Shown here: positions 17,451-39,035 of the stretch, piece after piece
Layout of the letters: each line of letters starts with the position of its first letter
How positions within the stretch are numbered: position 1 is the first letter of the stretch
Origin: Clostridia bacterium
Lineage (GTDB): Bacteria; Bacillota; Clostridia; Oscillospirales; Feifaniaceae
Assembly (NCBI GenBank): GCA_017517965.1
Contig: JAFWXR010000005.1
Coordinates: forward strand, 1-64,000
Direction: 5' to 3'
DNA length: 64,000 nt
The notes under the pieces: generated by a model
Databases searched by the model: none
Seen by the model: only the letters and a program-made list of their open reading frames with translations
What the model was told of the DNA's origin: nothing
Made by a program: the position numbers and the translations under genes

Positions 17451-17725
17451 GGACGTGTTCACATAGGAATGAATCGGTTTTGGCTTGATATTTTCCGTTA
17501 ATACTTCATAAAAAAATTCCGTAATACACAAAGTATTGCGGAATTTTTATTATTTTGTCTAAACGAAAAATCTCTAACCCAAAACTGCAAAGCACCACAA
17601 AAAGCATAATTCTGGACAAAAAATGGAAAAAGATCTCTATAATTCTGATGGTTATGGAGGTCTTTTAACACAGTTGTGCTTAAAATTATGCTTTTTGGGC
17701 GAATAATCCCTAAGTGAACACATCC
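17451..17725. mobile_element. MITE-like element, copy A, carrying a nested insertion
   Basis: The left end GGACGTGTTCACATAGG and the right end (reverse complement GGATGTGTTCACTTAGG) are inverted repeats that continue inward to about 26 bases. Inside are TTTTGG/CCAAAA arms and a hairpin, AAATTCCG...CGGAATTT. The 153-bp element at 31104 has the same ends and core. This copy is longer because of an extra segment at about 17589-17696. No transposase is encoded. Confidence 0.8.
17589..17696. mobile_element. Small element nested in MITE copy A
   Basis: Compared with the copy at 31104, about 103 bases are added after AAACTGC. The insert is bounded by AAAAAGCATAATT (17599-17611) and its exact inverse AATTATGCTTTTT (17684-17696), and TGC flanks the added segment on both sides. 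It encodes nothing. Confidence 0.65.
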
Positions 17726-17774
17726 TAAGTCGAGTGATGAACTCGGGGATTTTTTTATTTACAATTCGGAATTT

Positions 17775-17889
17775 CGTCCTCACAAACTTCGCTTAATTCC
17801 ATTTTGCTATCGCAAAAATTCCATCTGCTTCGTTGCTCGTCCTCTTCCCAACACAACGCACTTCGTTCTGCCTTGTGTTGGGAGCCCTT
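17775..17889. repeat. Dispersed repeat C, copy 1
   Basis: The sequence from CGTCCTCACAAACTTCGC through GCAAAAATTCCATCTGC to the CAACGCACTTCGTTCTGCC segment recurs, with scattered differences, at 37474-37590 inside the ribU riboswitch. AATTCGGAATT motifs flank this copy on both sides. Confidence 0.75.
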
Positions 17890-17998
17890 TTGACAATTCG
17901 GAATTAAGGAAGAAATTCCCGTGGAATTTCAACCGAACTTATTCACTCTTCACTATTACCTATTACTTCAACATCGTCCCGTTAAAAGACTGTCGGAA

Positions 17999-18205
17999 AA
18001 ACAGAAAATGCAAAGAAAAGAAAAGTAACCAAAAGAAAAGAAATAAAAATAAAAGAAAAGTAAAGAAAAGAAAATTAAATAAAAGAAAAGAAATGAAAAA
18101 TTATTTTTTCTGAAAAAATCGCCATTTTTTCGGAAAATATCCCACAAAGAAAAGAAAATAAAAGAAAAGTAAAGTAAAGTAAATAAAAGTAAATAAAAGT
18201 AAATG
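17999..18205. repeat. Purine-rich AAAAGAAAAGTAA tract with two palindromes
   Basis: Two hundred bases of A-rich units such as AAAAGAAAAG and AAAGTAAAG surround two adjacent palindromes, ATTTTTTCTGAAAAAAT and a TTTTCGGAAAA variant (18103-18140). The antisense reading frame is Phe/Leu/Ser-only and not credible as a gene. With the elements before and after, this accounts for the gene-free stretch 17449-18416. Confidence 0.65.
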
Positions 18206-18254
18206 TTCTCTGCACGTGCGTGCAAAAAAATTTTTAGGAAATCACAAAAAATAC

Positions 18255-31103: not shown

Positions 31104-31256
31104 GGGCGTATTCACTCAGGGATGAATCGGTTTTGGCTCGCTTCATAAAAAATTCCGTAATACAAAGTATTGCGGAATTTTTATTATTTTGTCTAAACGA
31201 AAAATTTCTGACCCAAAACTGCCTTTTGAGCGAATAATCCCTGAGCGAGCACGCCC
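31104..31256. mobile_element. MITE-like element, copy B (153 bp)
   Basis: The ends GGGCGTATTCACTCAGGG and (reverse complement) GGGCGTGCTCGCTCAGGG are inverted repeats. The core holds TTTTGG/CCAAAA arms and an AAATTCCG/CGGAATTT hairpin followed by a T-rich run, identical in order to copy A at 17451. It encodes no protein. Confidence 0.8.
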
Positions 31257-32630: not shown

Positions 32631-34538
32631 TTAATATATTTCTATTCCCATAGTTCCGAGTATGTAACCTTCTTCATCAACGGCGTACTTGACACCTATC
32701 ATGGAGTCACCCTTGACGTAATAGATGGTGGCAATGCTGTCCGTTTCGCTGTGATCGTAGTAATACCAGCCCAGACTGTCGATATACATTCTGTAATAAC
32801 TGTCTTCCATGGTTGAGTAATTGTACATATACGCGTCACAGCCGACAACGTAACCGTCGGTTACCGTGTCAGCCTCATAGTTAAATGACTTGACACACGG
32901 TGAGCCCGTTACGCTGTGATAGGTAGGTGCACCGTTTCTGTAATAGGTGACATTGTTTTTCGGCTTGGCAACGGCACTCGTGACGATTGCATTGAGTGTC
33001 GCAGTTGCATTTAAATTATCATCGTCAAATTCAACGCTCAGCTTGCCTGCACCCGTTGAGTTACCAAAGATTATGAGTTCACATTTTCCTTCGGAAAGCG
33101 TTTCACCCCAGCGCACTTTGATGCACGATTCCTCGTCCGTAAAGGCAACGAGCATATCCTCCGTGCCGGGTGTGCAGTTTACTATAACGGTTTTCCACTC
33201 ACCCTTGTCAAGCGTGAGGCTTGAAAGACTCAGACGAATGGTGTATTTTGCATCGACTATCTCTGAAATATTGAGCAGAGACGTAACCGTATTCCGTGAA
33301 AGGTCGTTTATATAGTGAATCGGAATGGAAAGGTTTAAATTCTGGGCATCACCTGTAAAAATTCTGCTTGTGATACCTATGACTTTTCCGTATTCGTTTA
33401 TAAGCGCACCGCCGCTTGAACCGGGTGATACGGGAACGGATATCTGAATATAGTCAAGTCCGTTCAGGTCGCGGTTGGGGTTTGAAACAAGACCGTCAGA
33501 AATCGTGTTGTCAAGACCTTTGGGGCTTCCTATTGCATACACTATCTGTCCTGCAACGGGTGTTGAAGTGTCAATCTCAAGAAAGTCGAAGCCGTCACCG
33601 TCAATCCGCAGAATTGCCGTATCACGAATCGGATCACAGTCGTAAACGCCGAGCACGTCGTAGACGGCATTGTCCGTCGTCATAATTCTTGCATAAGATG
33701 CGCCTTCTATAACGTGGTAATTGGTTACGAAAGTGCCGTTTGAGTTTATGAAGAATCCGCTTCCGTGTGCAAAATGCTGACCGTTTGCATCGTAAACTTC
33801 AACGTAGGCTACTGATGAAGCACATTTTTCAGCAATCTGTGATGCCGTCAGTGAATCTGTGACGGGTGTCGAAGTGCTTTCATCGAGCGAAAACTCTTTA
33901 CGGAGTGTGGTGTCAACAACTCTTGAAATGATAGCGGCCGCCTCTGCACGTTTGATGTTGTTGCTCGGGAAGAAGGAGCCTTTTGTATCGCTTCCCGTGA
34001 GTATACCTGCATTGTACAGACCGAGTATCTCGTGATAATACGAGTGTGAAAGACCTACGTCAGGCACGGAATTTATCGAGTTTATTGCCGTAAATTCTGC
34101 TTCGGGCAGGGCATTGTAGAAAATATACGCCATTTGTGCACGTGTTGCCGTTTTTGTAACGTCGGCAAAGTCCGTCTGTGCAATTATGCCGTTGTTTACG
34201 GCGTATGAAACGTAGGGAAGATACCAGGGGTTACCACCGGAGAAAATGGCGGTTTCGCCCGTGTTGTAGATGCTGTGTACTCTGTCTGCCATAACAAGTG
34301 CTTCTGCTATGGTGAGTTCACCGTTAGGGTTGAATGTGGTATTTGAGCTTCCGTACATAAGTGCATATTCGTAGCACGCTTTAATTGACGGCATTGCCCA
34401 GTTTGACGAGGCAACGTCCACGAAATTGTTATCGTATGTGTTTACGGGCTTGAAATTTCCCATATCCGCCGCCATCGCAGGCACACAGAGTGTGGAAATA
34501 AGACAAATTGCAAGTAATATTGAAATAATGCGTTTCAT
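32631..34538 (-). CDS. SLH-anchored trypsin-like serine protease (DegP/HtrA type, no PDZ)
   Basis: The 635-residue secreted protein has a signal peptide (1-23, cut after AMA), three SLH repeats (about 38-215) that bind cell-wall polymer, and a chymotrypsin-fold protease domain (about 235-415). The full catalytic triad is present: His275 (NYHVIEG), Asp306 (RDTAIL) and Ser375 (GSSGGA). A beta-rich linker and one copy of a roughly 100-residue module (531-635) with the pattern GAPTYxxxTGxxC end the protein. Typical HtrA PDZ domains are absent. It lies three bases downstream of its inactive paralog in one operon and should act on the cell surface. Confidence 0.92.
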   Translation of the reverse strand: MKRIISILLAICLISTLCVPAMAADMGNFKPVNTYDNNFVDVASSNWAMPSIKACYEYALMYGSSNTTFNPNGELTIAEALVMADRVHSIYNTGETAIFSGGNPWYLPYVSYAVNNGIIAQTDFADVTKTATRAQMAYIFYNALPEAEFTAINSINSVPDVGLSHSYYHEILGLYNAGILTGSDTKGSFFPSNNIKRAEAAAIISRVVDTTLRKEFSLDESTSTPVTDSLTASQIAEKCASSVAYVEVYDANGQHFAHGSGFFINSNGTFVTNYHVIEGASYARIMTTDNAVYDVLGVYDCDPIRDTAILRIDGDGFDFLEIDTSTPVAGQIVYAIGSPKGLDNTISDGLVSNPNRDLNGLDYIQISVPVSPGSSGGALINEYGKVIGITSRIFTGDAQNLNLSIPIHYINDLSRNTVTSLLNISEIVDAKYTIRLSLSSLTLDKGEWKTVIVNCTPGTEDMLVAFTDEESCIKVRWGETLSEGKCELIIFGNSTGAGKLSVEFDDDNLNATATLNAIVTSAVAKPKNNVTYYRNGAPTYHSVTGSPCVKSFNYEADTVTDGYVVGCDAYMYNYSTMEDSYYRMYIDSLGWYYYDHSETDSIATIYYVKGDSMIGVKYAVDEEGYILGTMGIEIY

Positions 34539-34541
34539 AGT

Positions 34542-36698
34542 TTACCCCTTTATAACGTAGATTGAAACGATGAAATAATAGTAATCAATTTCAACACCGA
34601 TTCTGTTGTTTCCTTTATCAAAGACGTAAAGAACCGTTTCGTCGGCTTCGTCTTCATTATAATTGGAGAATACCCATCCCTCGTCCTGAAGGTGACTCAT
34701 ATAGTTGCTGACGGGTGTATCACGGGTATATTCGTAAAAATAAACGTCTGCATTTTCGTGATATCCGGGGAGTTGGTCCTGAGTATCCACAAAGTATGAG
34801 TAAAGACATTCTTCACCCGTATAATCGTGGTAGGTTGGTGCACCGTTTTTATAGGTGTTCTGTGTGGAAACGTAGAAAACTATGTATACGGTATTCGTAG
34901 CATGGTCGACGTTGACACCGATTCTGTAATTGCCCTTTATGAAGAAGTTGGCAACTGTGTCACCTTCGCTTGCGGTTTCCGAATACGCCCAGCCGTTTGC
35001 CTTGAGTGCCTTCATATACGAATCAGGCTCACTCGGGGCGTAATAGTCGTAGCCGTAGATTGCGGCACCGTCCTCGTAGTAGTCGTAGGTCATACCGGTT
35101 TCTACCATATATGAATATTCACACGGAATACCCGTAATACTGCTGTAAGAGGGTGCTCCCACAGCATAATAATCAGGCTCGCCCTCAGGAGAACCTGAGG
35201 TTACGAGTATGTTGCATTTTTTGTTTGAAACGGGCTCAAACGTGTAGGCGACTGATACGGTTGTTCTGCCCTTGTTTTTACCTGAAAGTGTGAGCATAAT
35301 CTCATGGTCGGAAATGTATTTTATTTCCGTGAGCTCGACGATATCCGCCACGTCTGTCGTTATCGTTATATGGTCACGCAATACGGGGGAGAAGTTGACA
35401 AGCAGAGACTGCCCATAAGTGTGCTGTGAGACGGTAACCTTGTTTTTTGTCGTATACAGCACAGACTCGGATTCGAGAAACTCTGCAAACTTTTCTATGG
35501 GCAGGGGATTGCCCTTGACTAAATTTTTGGCATATTCCGCAGGAATTGCAGAAAAAACGGATGATGCATCCTTTACACCTATAACCTTACCGTATTTGTT
35601 TACGGCAACTGCACCTATTGCCGATGAGGGCACGTTTACGTTGCACATTATGCGGTTGGAATCAGCGGGACCTGAAACGTCACCTTCGGCAAACAGAGTG
35701 TTTCCCGCAAAGGAATATATTGCAAAAACCTGCTCGTTTGCCTTCACTGAAGAGGTGTCAATTTCAAGAAACGCCGTATTTTCACAGGTGGTTTTCAAAA
35801 GAACGAGGTTGTTTGGGGCGTCACAGTCGTAGACACTTTCGACAGCATATTCTCTCTTGTCTGCCGTTTTGACTTTGACGCTTACGGCACCTTTTACACA
35901 GTCGATTGCAGTTATAAGCGTGCCTTCACCGTCGGTGAAAAAGCCGCTGCCCGAGGAAACTGTTTTACCGTCAGCGTCGTAGCCCTGTACGAGTGCAACG
36001 GCAGGAGAGCATTTATCCTTTATTTCGTTTGCCGAAAGAGGCTCGGTTATAGTAAAGGTTTTGCGAAGTTTTACGTCAACCACTCTTGAAATGATAGCCG
36101 CCGCTTCTGCACGTGTGATATTTTTGTCGGGATAGAACGTTCCGAAAGCATCGCTTCCCGTAAGTATGCCTGCGTTGTAGAGTGCTTTTATCTCTGTGTG
36201 GAATTTGTGTTCACCGTCAACGTCGGGCACGTTTTTTATTGAATTTATTGCCGTGAATTCTTTTTCGGGGAGTGCATTGTAAAAGACGTAAGCCATCTGC
36301 GCACGAGTTATTTTGAGTGTTACGTCGGAAAAATCAGATGCCGAAACGATGCCTTTGTTTACGGCGTAATCAACGTAGGGCTTGTACCACGGTGTGCCTG
36401 AAAAAACGGCAGTTTCCCCCGTGTTGTAAATGCTGTGTACACGGTCAGCCATAACGAGTGCTTCCGCAACCGTAAGTTCACCCGAGGGGTTGAACTTCGT
36501 GTTTGATGAGCCGTACATAAGCGCATATTCGTAGCACGCTTTGATTGACGGCATTGCCCAATGTTCAGAGGCCACGTCGGTAAAATTATTGTCATACATA
36601 TTATATTGCACGAAATTGCCCATTCCTGCAGCCATAACAGGCATACAGAGTGTAAACACCAGACAAATGGCAAGCAATGTTGAAATAATGCGTTTCAT
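34542..36698 (-). CDS. SLH-anchored pseudoprotease, paralog of the downstream protease
   Basis: The 718-residue protein shares signal peptide, three SLH repeats and protease fold with its neighbour (the first 95 residues are nearly identical), but all three catalytic positions are replaced: His becomes Asp266 (AIDCVKG), Asp becomes Asn297 (APNNLVLL) and Ser becomes Ile361 (SSAIGAV). It carries two copies of the GAPxYxxxTGxxC module (511-610 and 615-717) where the active paralog has one. It comes first in the operon. A surface-binding or regulatory role towards the active enzyme is inference. Confidence 0.9.
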   Translation of the reverse strand: MKRIISTLLAICLVFTLCMPVMAAGMGNFVQYNMYDNNFTDVASEHWAMPSIKACYEYALMYGSSNTKFNPSGELTVAEALVMADRVHSIYNTGETAVFSGTPWYKPYVDYAVNKGIVSASDFSDVTLKITRAQMAYVFYNALPEKEFTAINSIKNVPDVDGEHKFHTEIKALYNAGILTGSDAFGTFYPDKNITRAEAAAIISRVVDVKLRKTFTITEPLSANEIKDKCSPAVALVQGYDADGKTVSSGSGFFTDGEGTLITAIDCVKGAVSVKVKTADKREYAVESVYDCDAPNNLVLLKTTCENTAFLEIDTSSVKANEQVFAIYSFAGNTLFAEGDVSGPADSNRIMCNVNVPSSAIGAVAVNKYGKVIGVKDASSVFSAIPAEYAKNLVKGNPLPIEKFAEFLESESVLYTTKNKVTVSQHTYGQSLLVNFSPVLRDHITITTDVADIVELTEIKYISDHEIMLTLSGKNKGRTTVSVAYTFEPVSNKKCNILVTSGSPEGEPDYYAVGAPSYSSITGIPCEYSYMVETGMTYDYYEDGAAIYGYDYYAPSEPDSYMKALKANGWAYSETASEGDTVANFFIKGNYRIGVNVDHATNTVYIVFYVSTQNTYKNGAPTYHDYTGEECLYSYFVDTQDQLPGYHENADVYFYEYTRDTPVSNYMSHLQDEGWVFSNYNEDEADETVLYVFDKGNNRIGVEIDYYYFIVSIYVIKG

Positions 36699-36765: not shown

Positions 36766-37350
36766 CTATTTAGCCTTTTTTATAAGGGGTGAAATGCGCT
36801 TGTACACCAAAAACGTGAGGGCAGAGTTGCCAAGTCCCTTGAATATGAAATTAAAGGGTGTGGACACGTATAAAAGCGCCTCCCACAGAGAGTCGATGCC
36901 TTTCCATATCGCACCGTATGCGCCGATGATGGCATCAATGGGCATAAGTTTTGAATAGAAGGGGTAGGTGATATACAAATTGACGGGAAAGCTTACTATT
37001 GCCATTGCCGCCGCACCTGCAAGTGATGCAATAAGGGCTGATTTTATGCCCTTTTTTCTTTTGTATATAATGCCTGCCGTAAAGGCAAACGAGGCACCGA
37101 GTAAGAAATTACTCAGCTCACCAACACCGCCCGTGGAGGTCACCGTAAGGTGAACAAGGTTTTTGATAAGACAGACGATGACGCCTGACACGGGCCCCAT
37201 TGCAAAGGATGCGATGAGTGCAGGCACTTCCGAAAAGTCCATTTTTATAAAGGAAGGGATAAAGAAAGCCACCGAAAAGTCAAGCAGCATAAGCACGTAT
37301 GCAAATGCCGATAACATTCCTATCCACACTATTTTTCTTGTTTTTGACAT
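36766..37350 (-). CDS. ribU: Riboflavin ECF transporter substrate-binding protein RibU
   Basis: The 194-residue protein has six predicted membrane helices and RibU features: KMDFSEVPALIASFAMGPVSG split over the second segment, LVHLT(V)TSTGGVGELSNF near 70, and a later FPVNLYITYPFY. It captures riboflavin for an ECF module encoded elsewhere. The ATG at 37350 has GGAGG eight bases upstream; upstream codons in frame belong to the leader terminator. The FMN riboswitch directly upstream confirms the assignment. Confidence 0.93.
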   Translation of the reverse strand: MSKTRKIVWIGMLSAFAYVLMLLDFSVAFFIPSFIKMDFSEVPALIASFAMGPVSGVIVCLIKNLVHLTVTSTGGVGELSNFLLGASFAFTAGIIYKRKKGIKSALIASLAGAAAMAIVSFPVNLYITYPFYSKLMPIDAIIGAYGAIWKGIDSLWEALLYVSTPFNFIFKGLGNSALTFLVYKRISPLIKKAK

Positions 37351-37363
37351 TGAATTTACCTCC

Positions 37364-37393
37364 AAAAAAGCCCTACAGAAACACCTGTAGGGC
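37364..37393 (-). terminator. Attenuator terminator of the ribU riboswitch
   Basis: On the minus strand GCCCTACAG pairs with CTGTAGGGC around GTGTTT and is followed by six T. It lies between the aptamer and the ribU ribosome site, so FMN binding probably stops transcription here. Confidence 0.88.
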
Positions 37394-37473
37394 AAAAATA
37401 TAATTTTATCTCATCCGGACTTTACCGTCGGTTCGGGAATTTCACCCGATCAGCCAAAAGGCTCGCAGACTGT

Positions 37474-37590
37474 CGTCCTCACAAACTTCGCTTAATTTCA
37501 TTTTTGCTATCCGCAAAAATTTCATCTGCTCCGTTACTCGTCCTCTATCCCATTGCAACGCACTTCGTTCTGCCTTGCAACGGGAACCCT
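37474..37590. repeat. Dispersed repeat C, copy 2, inside the riboswitch
   Basis: The sequence aligns over its whole length with 17775-17889, including CGTCCTCACAAACTTCGC and CAACGCACTTCGTTCTGCC. It occupies the side of the riboswitch insertion nearer ribU. Confidence 0.75.
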
Positions 37591-37612
37591 GATTCTGATT
37601 CTGAGGAACAAG

Positions 37613-37775
37613 TATATAAGGGCAGGTGACAATATATGCTATCCGTTTAGAAAAATTTCTGTCATTTCGATACGAAAGGATGCAGCAAGGCTTTGTGCCT
37701 TGCAATATCCTGACAAGTCGCAAATGGCGGGAATTTTACAAACGAAGAGTATGTGTTGTTACCTGTTCTTATATA
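37613..37775. mobile_element. Inverted-repeat element D (163 bp), inside the riboswitch
   Basis: TATATAAGGGCAGGTGACA at the left and TGTTACCTGTTCTTATATA at the right are 19-base imperfect inverted repeats. The inside holds a second stem, GCAAGGC...GCCTTGC. It has no coding capacity and looks like a MITE. Confidence 0.7.
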
Positions 37776-37820
37776 CAATTAACTGCCGGTCAGGGAATTT
37801 CACCCTGCCCCTAAAAATAT

Positions 37821-39035
37821 TCATTTTTTGATTTTATCCCAGTACGCCTTTGTTGCCTGTTCAATTTTATTCTCACCGTAGGTGTAATAGACGTCGTCTT
37901 TGATTTTGTCGGGCAGATACTGCTGTTTTACCCAACTGTTTTCAAAGGAATGGGGATATTTGTAACCGCCTCTGTCCATTTTCTCGGCACCGCTGTAATG
38001 GGTGTCACGAAGGTGCATGGGTATCTCACCGCAGTCACCGTTAAGGCGTTCGAGTGCCGCATCAATACCGCATATTGCCGAGTTTGATTTGGGTGCCGTT
38101 GCAAGAAGGATAACAGCCTCTGCAAGCGGTATTCTCGCCTCGGGGAAACCAAGCCGCAAAGCAGTTTCGACACAGGCATTCGTCACGGTTATTGCAGACG
38201 GGTAGGCAAGCCCGATATCCTCTGCAGCGATGACCGACAGCCTTCTGCATATTGCAGGTAAGTCACCCGCTGCAACGAGCCTTGCAAGATAGTGGAGTGC
38301 CGCATTTTCATCACTTCCGCGAATGGATTTCTGAAAAGCGGATAAAAGGTCGTAATGCGAATCGCCCTCTTTGTCATACTTGACGGCACTTTTCTGCGTA
38401 ACCTCTTTTGCCGTGTCAAGCGTGATGTCGCCGCACAGGCAGAGCAGTTCAACCGTGCTCACCGCCTTACGTGCATCACCGCCCGATGAAAAGGCAACGT
38501 GAGTTATAACCTCGTCGGGCGCCTCACACTCCATACTTTCGAAAGCACGCTTTATAAGCGGAACAAGCTCTTCATCCGTTATGGATTTGAACTCAAACAC
38601 CGTCGAACGTGATAAAAGAGCAGGGTATACGTAAAAGTAAGGATTCTCGGTCGTGCTGGCAATAAGCGTCAGCTTACCGTTCTCCATATACTGTAACAGA
38701 AGCTGTTGTTGCTTTTTGTTGAAATACTGTATCTCATCGAGATAAAGCAGTACCCCGTCGGGTGCCATAAAGGTGTCAAGCTCGGCAATTATATCCTTGA
38801 TGTCACCGCTTCCAGCCGAAGTGCCGTTGAGTTTAAATAACTTTTTATCGGTCATCTTCGCAAGAATGGAGGCGACGGTGGTCTTGCCGACACCGGGAGG
38901 GCCGTAAAAGACCATATTGGGTATATTACCGCTACTTGCGATTTTTCTTATTATGCCGTTTTTGCCCACAAGATGCGTCTGCCCAACGACTTCGTCGAGC
39001 GACTGAGGGCGTAATCTGTCAGCAAGCGGTTTCAT
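37821..39035 (-). CDS. rarA: Replication-associated recombination ATPase RarA (MgsA)
   Basis: The 404-residue AAA+ protein has Walker A FYGPPGVGKTT (about 43-53), Walker B LLYLDEIQ (about 95-102), sensor 1 STTENP and the C-terminal helical tetramerisation region with LRDTHYSGAEKMDRGGYKYPH. It acts at stalled replication forks. Its start lies two bases after the glyA stop. The FMN riboswitch begins at its stop codon, so ribU RNA may arise partly by read-through from this operon. Confidence 0.95.
   Translation of the reverse strand: MKPLADRLRPQSLDEVVGQTHLVGKNGIIRKIASSGNIPNMVFYGPPGVGKTTVASILAKMTDKKLFKLNGTSAGSGDIKDIIAELDTFMAPDGVLLYLDEIQYFNKKQQQLLLQYMENGKLTLIASTTENPYFYVYPALLSRSTVFEFKSITDEELVPLIKRAFESMECEAPDEVITHVAFSSGGDARKAVSTVELLCLCGDITLDTAKEVTQKSAVKYDKEGDSHYDLLSAFQKSIRGSDENAALHYLARLVAAGDLPAICRRLSVIAAEDIGLAYPSAITVTNACVETALRLGFPEARIPLAEAVILLATAPKSNSAICGIDAALERLNGDCGEIPMHLRDTHYSGAEKMDRGGYKYPHSFENSWVKQQYLPDKIKDDVYYTYGENKIEQATKAYWDKIKK

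Follow-up and report, generated by a model that had tools for sequence, protein, structure and literature searches.

In the pneumococcal trp operon a BOX element separates two T-box leaders, an arrangement reported to be still regulatory (PMC3049150). The Rickettsia palindromic elements and the CGTC-tagged REPs are short structured repeats, each a single stem-loop of 20-40 bp with an 8-9-bp stem, which are found both in intergenic regions and in frame within genes; no transposase is known for the CGTC REPs (PMC3733652). As for the FMN aptamer, earlier crystals were assembled from two separate strands without L4 (PMC7573352). In the literature, chiefly that outside subscription journals, we met no description of an FMN aptamer that harbours an interspersed repeat. 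The ribU leader described here shares with the trp leader the presence of an interspersed repeat in a riboswitch-controlled leader, but BOX stands between two aptamers whereas the repeats of the ribU leader stand inside a loop of one. We regard this locus as probably an ordinary ribU-type RFN attenuator whose P3 loop has gained a pair of independent structured elements, one next to the other.

The window, i.e. the whole stretch of DNA analysed, comprises 64,000 nt (positions 1-64,000, forward strand) of contig JAFWXR010000005.1 from a Clostridia bacterium (GCA_017517965.1; GTDB lineage Bacillota; Clostridia; Oscillospirales; Feifaniaceae). The source genome (G000) is a 1.43-Mb draft, 76% complete, and repeat copy numbers given for it are counts from sequence searches. 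The comparison set consisted of 394 genomes of the same order, covering 168 genera, and of seven other family members. Features are listed in Table 1.

Table 1. Features of the ribU leader and its surroundings, and repeat C loci discussed in the text
Feature	Position	Strand	Details
FMN aptamer 5′ half	37783..37820	-	P1 5′ strand 37820-37812, J1/2, P2, J2/3, P3 5′ strand GCAG 37786-37783
FMN aptamer 3′ half	37400..37468	-	P3 3′ strand CUGC 37468-37465, P4, P5, P6, P1 3′ strand 37408-37400
P3-loop insertion, 306 nt	37474..37779	-	empty loop taken as UUACAGU, as in L036
Long hairpin, 165 nt, imperfect full-length inverted repeat	37612..37776	+	apical GCAAGGCTTTGTGCCTTGC
Repeat C (R1 element), 118 nt	37473..37590	-	structured strand is the riboswitch strand
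Intrinsic terminator, 10 bp + T-tract, expression platform	37370..37393	-	GGAGG directly after
ECF transporter substrate-binding component, ribU-like	36766..37350	-	PF12822, 6e-33
rarA/mgsA, upstream gene	37821..39035	-	stop codon 37823-37821 abuts P1
Repeat C, second copy in the window	17774..17888	-	intergenic
Repeat C relatives in phage portal gene	L093 1501-1607; L097 1501-1606		same place twice
Repeat C relative in primase gene	L094 1501-1613		
Repeat C relatives in other genes	L088 1501-1613; L096 1501-1604		genes listed: cytosine methyltransferase (inside), serine recombinase (end)

The initial annotation had placed two conserved halves of an FMN aptamer, about 300 bases apart, at 37400-37820, and this holds at base level on the - strand. 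The 5′ half reads AUAUUUUUA-GGGGCA-GGGUGAAAUUCCC-UGACCGGCAGU and the 3′ half AGUCUGCGAGCC-UUUU-GGCUGAUCGGGUGAAAUUCCCGAACCGACGGUAAAGUCCGGAUGAGA-UAAAAUUAU. As in other members of RF00050, the conserved core strands and helices P1-P6 are present, followed by a terminator, and the leader precedes a gene of riboflavin-transporter type; it is on account of the RFN upstream that this ECF component is called RibU. The locus departs from the family in the 306 extra nucleotides of its P3 loop, in one extra base in J2/3 (CCC-UG-ACC) and in its score. Alignment to RF00050, suggested with the initial annotation, recognised both halves, yet separately (57.3 bits for the 3′ half, 22.3 for the 5′ half), each below the Rfam gathering cut-off of 66.2 bits, and did not join them, because the insert is longer than what the search joins. 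An Rfam scan at the gathering threshold consequently does not report this riboswitch. The claim that core strands and terminator are intact stands insofar as both are kept; the J2/3 base, absent from 19 of 19 relatives compared, is the exception. P3 is formed by GCAG/CUGC around a loop of 314 nt, with an A-U pair replacing a G-C of the consensus GCGG/CCGC, a variant also found in L034, L109 and L110. P1 is AU-only. Its strand begins at the first base after the rarA stop codon (junction at 37811-37823), so that the leader must either have its own promoter within rarA or be readthrough from rarA. On the other side, beside ribU, tandem paralogues at 33897-36698 (about 75% identical DNA) encode a secreted protein with SLH and trypsin-like peptidase parts.

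Relatives provide the measure of what was added. An RFN scoring above cut-off was found in 338 of the 394 genomes of the order, and family members G001-G006 carry ordinary RFNs without the insert; no second RFN was found in the source genome. In relatives from the family and the order the P3 loop has 6-25 nt (UUACAGU in L036, for example) vs 314 nt in the ribU leader, and the same long insertion was seen in none of the leaders compared. The gap contains, as had been noticed, repeat C, also present near 17775, and an inverted-repeat element, whose limits (given as 37613-37775) were right within a base or two. Both do lie in the P3 loop, but they are adjacent and neither is nested in the other. 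P3 had further been taken as the one loop that tolerates insertions, and inspection of five low-scoring genomes (G119, G116, G367, G313 and G012) did not support this. L111 (G119) has about 125 nt inserted in the P4 loop and reaches 90 bits once both halves are joined; in L109 (G116) the P6 loop is extended by about 104 nt, and in L110 (G367) P4 and P6 both have long loops; in relatives with such P4 or P6 insertions of 100-125 nt the core is also retained. In L112 (G313) the 3′ half alone is recognisable, and the matches in G012 look spurious. Long insertions in RFN loops thus occur in about 1% of the order genomes examined and are not limited to P3; the aptamer crystals lacking L4 (PMC7573352) fit tolerance at L4. 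None of the long inserts of relatives is repeat C.

Neither the long hairpin nor repeat C is attributable to chance. The hairpin is the strongest fold in the 64-kb window and pairs along its whole length, with -88.7 kcal/mol (z -15) on the + strand and -54.8 kcal/mol (z -7) on the - strand. A second, divergent copy was found elsewhere in the source genome (G000:C43:17037-17198). It has an identical apical GCAAGGCTTTGTGCCTTGC, and its stem, largely different in sequence, is still paired throughout; by this comparison of two copies, the fold appears more conserved than the sequence. When arms were paired in a strand-neutral way, G-U outnumbered A-C on the + strand by 11 to 3 in the leader copy and by 5 to 2 in the C43 copy, which would weakly favour the + strand, antisense to ribU, as the structured one. 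Like a MITE, the 165-nt element is non-coding, forms a near-full-length inverted repeat and has terminal inverted repeats. It differs from one in that its flanks revealed no clear target-site duplication and in that only two divergent copies were found in the draft genome. No match to it was found in the viral contigs searched. It looks like a candidate MITE-like element. The initial annotation had called both repeats mobile: for the hairpin, mobility is suggested by the second divergent copy, and for repeat C by empty homologous sites, described below.

Repeat C is present in the source draft genome in 12-13 substantial copies and several fragments, mostly intergenic, several of which lie in sense and stop immediately upstream of a start codon. 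DNA searches of the seven other family members and of the 394 order genomes returned almost nothing. Relatives in the order were reached by a covariance model (R1) only, which detected them in 87 of the 394 genomes (22%) and in 57 of the 168 genera, with no match among the seven other family members. An exact-pattern scan of the GTDB species collection gave one planctomycete match, judged to be chance, and no family of Rfam 15 matches repeat C. Members of the family are about 105-127 nt long with three helices. Among 49 aligned copies, 92.9% of cells are paired, and of the 25 base pairs 21 vary at both positions. The covariation score was 0.519, vs 0.199 +/- 0.010 for shuffled and at most 0.140 for slid alignments; since only hairpins 1 and 3 guided the alignment, the fit did not favour the closing helix or its inner pairs (the helices numbered 3 and 4 in that count). 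The excess of G-U over A-C cells (122 vs 8) indicates that one strand of repeat C is structured.

Three other observations were made around repeat C copies or elsewhere in the window. A purine-rich low-complexity stretch (AAAGAAAAGAAAA...) occupies 17987-18212, directly beside the second window copy. Another repeat, of 61 nt, occurs at 17528-17588 and 31162-31222 (97% identical). Downstream of the copy in L050, positions 1779-1854 give a sub-threshold match to Gut-1 RNA (34.1 bits, cut-off 50).

Several relatives of repeat C lie inside genes. The copies in L093 and L094 preserve the reading frame of their host genes, which encode a phage portal protein and a CHC2-type primase respectively, and the homologues of both genes are empty at that place; the methyltransferase and recombinase host genes (Table 1) were named from sequence alone. 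These empty homologous sites support the view that repeat C is mobile. In L069 (1450-1670), a C-terminal coding sequence, VEGKISYETV*, closely flanks a repeat C relative on either side, a pattern that resembles duplication of the gene end about the inserted repeat. No consistent target-site duplication accompanies repeat C: a 13-base match around the 17774 copy was not seen at other copies. Possible agents and habits were also considered. No consistent link to a Y1/RAYT transposase as mobiliser emerged: PF01797 is missing from the source genome (76% complete) and from several genomes rich in the element, and present in others as well as in element-free ones. One named carrier of repeat C is a Subdoligranulum variabile plasmid. 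Phage origin was not supported as a general rule, with only four viral contigs carrying the exact pattern and two phage records, both from the gut, containing repeat C; some copies nevertheless lie within phage genes. Nor is repeat C a habitual invader of RNA genes, as no other known RNA was interrupted at the 40 loci checked.

Repeat C shares with the Rickettsia palindromic elements and CGTC REPs its presence both between genes and in frame within them, and with the CGTC REPs an end that carries a tag resembling CGTC or CCTC. It differs from both in length (105-127 nt) and in having three helices rather than a single stem-loop, and its order of Clostridia is not among the phyla listed in PMC3733652. 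Repeat C matches both groups in behaviour, not in size or fold.

How such an insert affects the aptamer was approached by folding prediction. Forming the core costs 6.7 kcal/mol in the complete RNA and 6.3 once the insert is removed, vs 10.7 +/- 2.9 kcal/mol with shuffled inserts (n=100). The native insert leaves the cost nearly unchanged because the hairpin and repeat C each fold on themselves. In 12 of the 100 shuffles, however, the core cost was no higher than with the native insert, so this cost does not show selection on the insert. P2, P4 and P5 are predicted to fold as usual. P3 has a probability of about 0.13 in the ligand-free, unconstrained ensemble, vs about 1.0 without the insert; this low predicted value, obtained for a ligand-free equilibrium, would be as expected for the closure of a large loop. 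The extra J2/3 base is a real caution for riboswitch function. Taken with this caution, the folding costs and the kept core lead us to infer that the riboswitch is likely still functional, with FMN switching retained.

We consider it unlikely that the insertions broke or weakened the riboswitch, either because P3 closes too late over a loop of 314 nt while transcription proceeds or because the J2/3 base spoils the pocket, leaving ribU constitutively expressed or terminated. The J2/3 base, the low ligand-free P3 probability and the AU-only P1 would all fit such a loss, whereas the rest of the core and the terminator show no damage, P2, P4 and P5 fold as usual and the core cost is scarcely altered. 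If the insertion is recent, however, decay would not be visible so soon. That the insert was recruited as a second regulatory input (pausing, an internal promoter, processing, or an antisense RNA from the + strand hairpin) is very improbable. Repeat C does present its conserved structured strand in the sense orientation, the better fold of the hairpin is on the antisense strand, and two weak promoter-like sites lie within the insert; but shuffled inserts have the same number of such sites, repeat C is found in many unrelated settings, and no relative compared has this arrangement. An assembly artefact at a multi-copy repeat is hardly credible: repeat C does break this draft assembly, as several copies at contig ends attest (C6, C21, C43), but a random misjoin would not yield complementary RFN halves in the right order, orientation and register beside the expected gene in a genome with no other RFN.

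Our preferred reading, an attenuator with two added elements, would then work as follows. An RFN riboswitch acting by transcription attenuation would have gained the 165-nt hairpin and the 118-nt RPE/REP-like repeat in its P3 loop. Each would fold on itself and project from L3 as an extra domain, so that the core helices could still assemble around the FMN site, and FMN binding would be expected to promote termination downstream, as it does in RFNs of the ordinary kind. Transposition is the presumed route of insertion, and the order of the two insertions would likewise be presumed.

This natural aptamer, one loop of which is 306 bases longer than usual, offers a direct test of FMN riboswitch modularity, and the interrupted leader illustrates how homology scans overlook such riboswitches. 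The repeat C family is a bigger result than the riboswitch variant, since its copy in the ribU leader leads to a widespread structured family missing from Rfam. Tentatively, repeat C may represent a family of structured mobile elements, so far undescribed and spread across the order, in which selection keeps the fold of one strand. This would let the repeat settle in genes and in structured RNAs, such as the FMN aptamer here, where it would fold as a domain of its own and leave the host working; the element may be mobilised through that RNA or act as that RNA.
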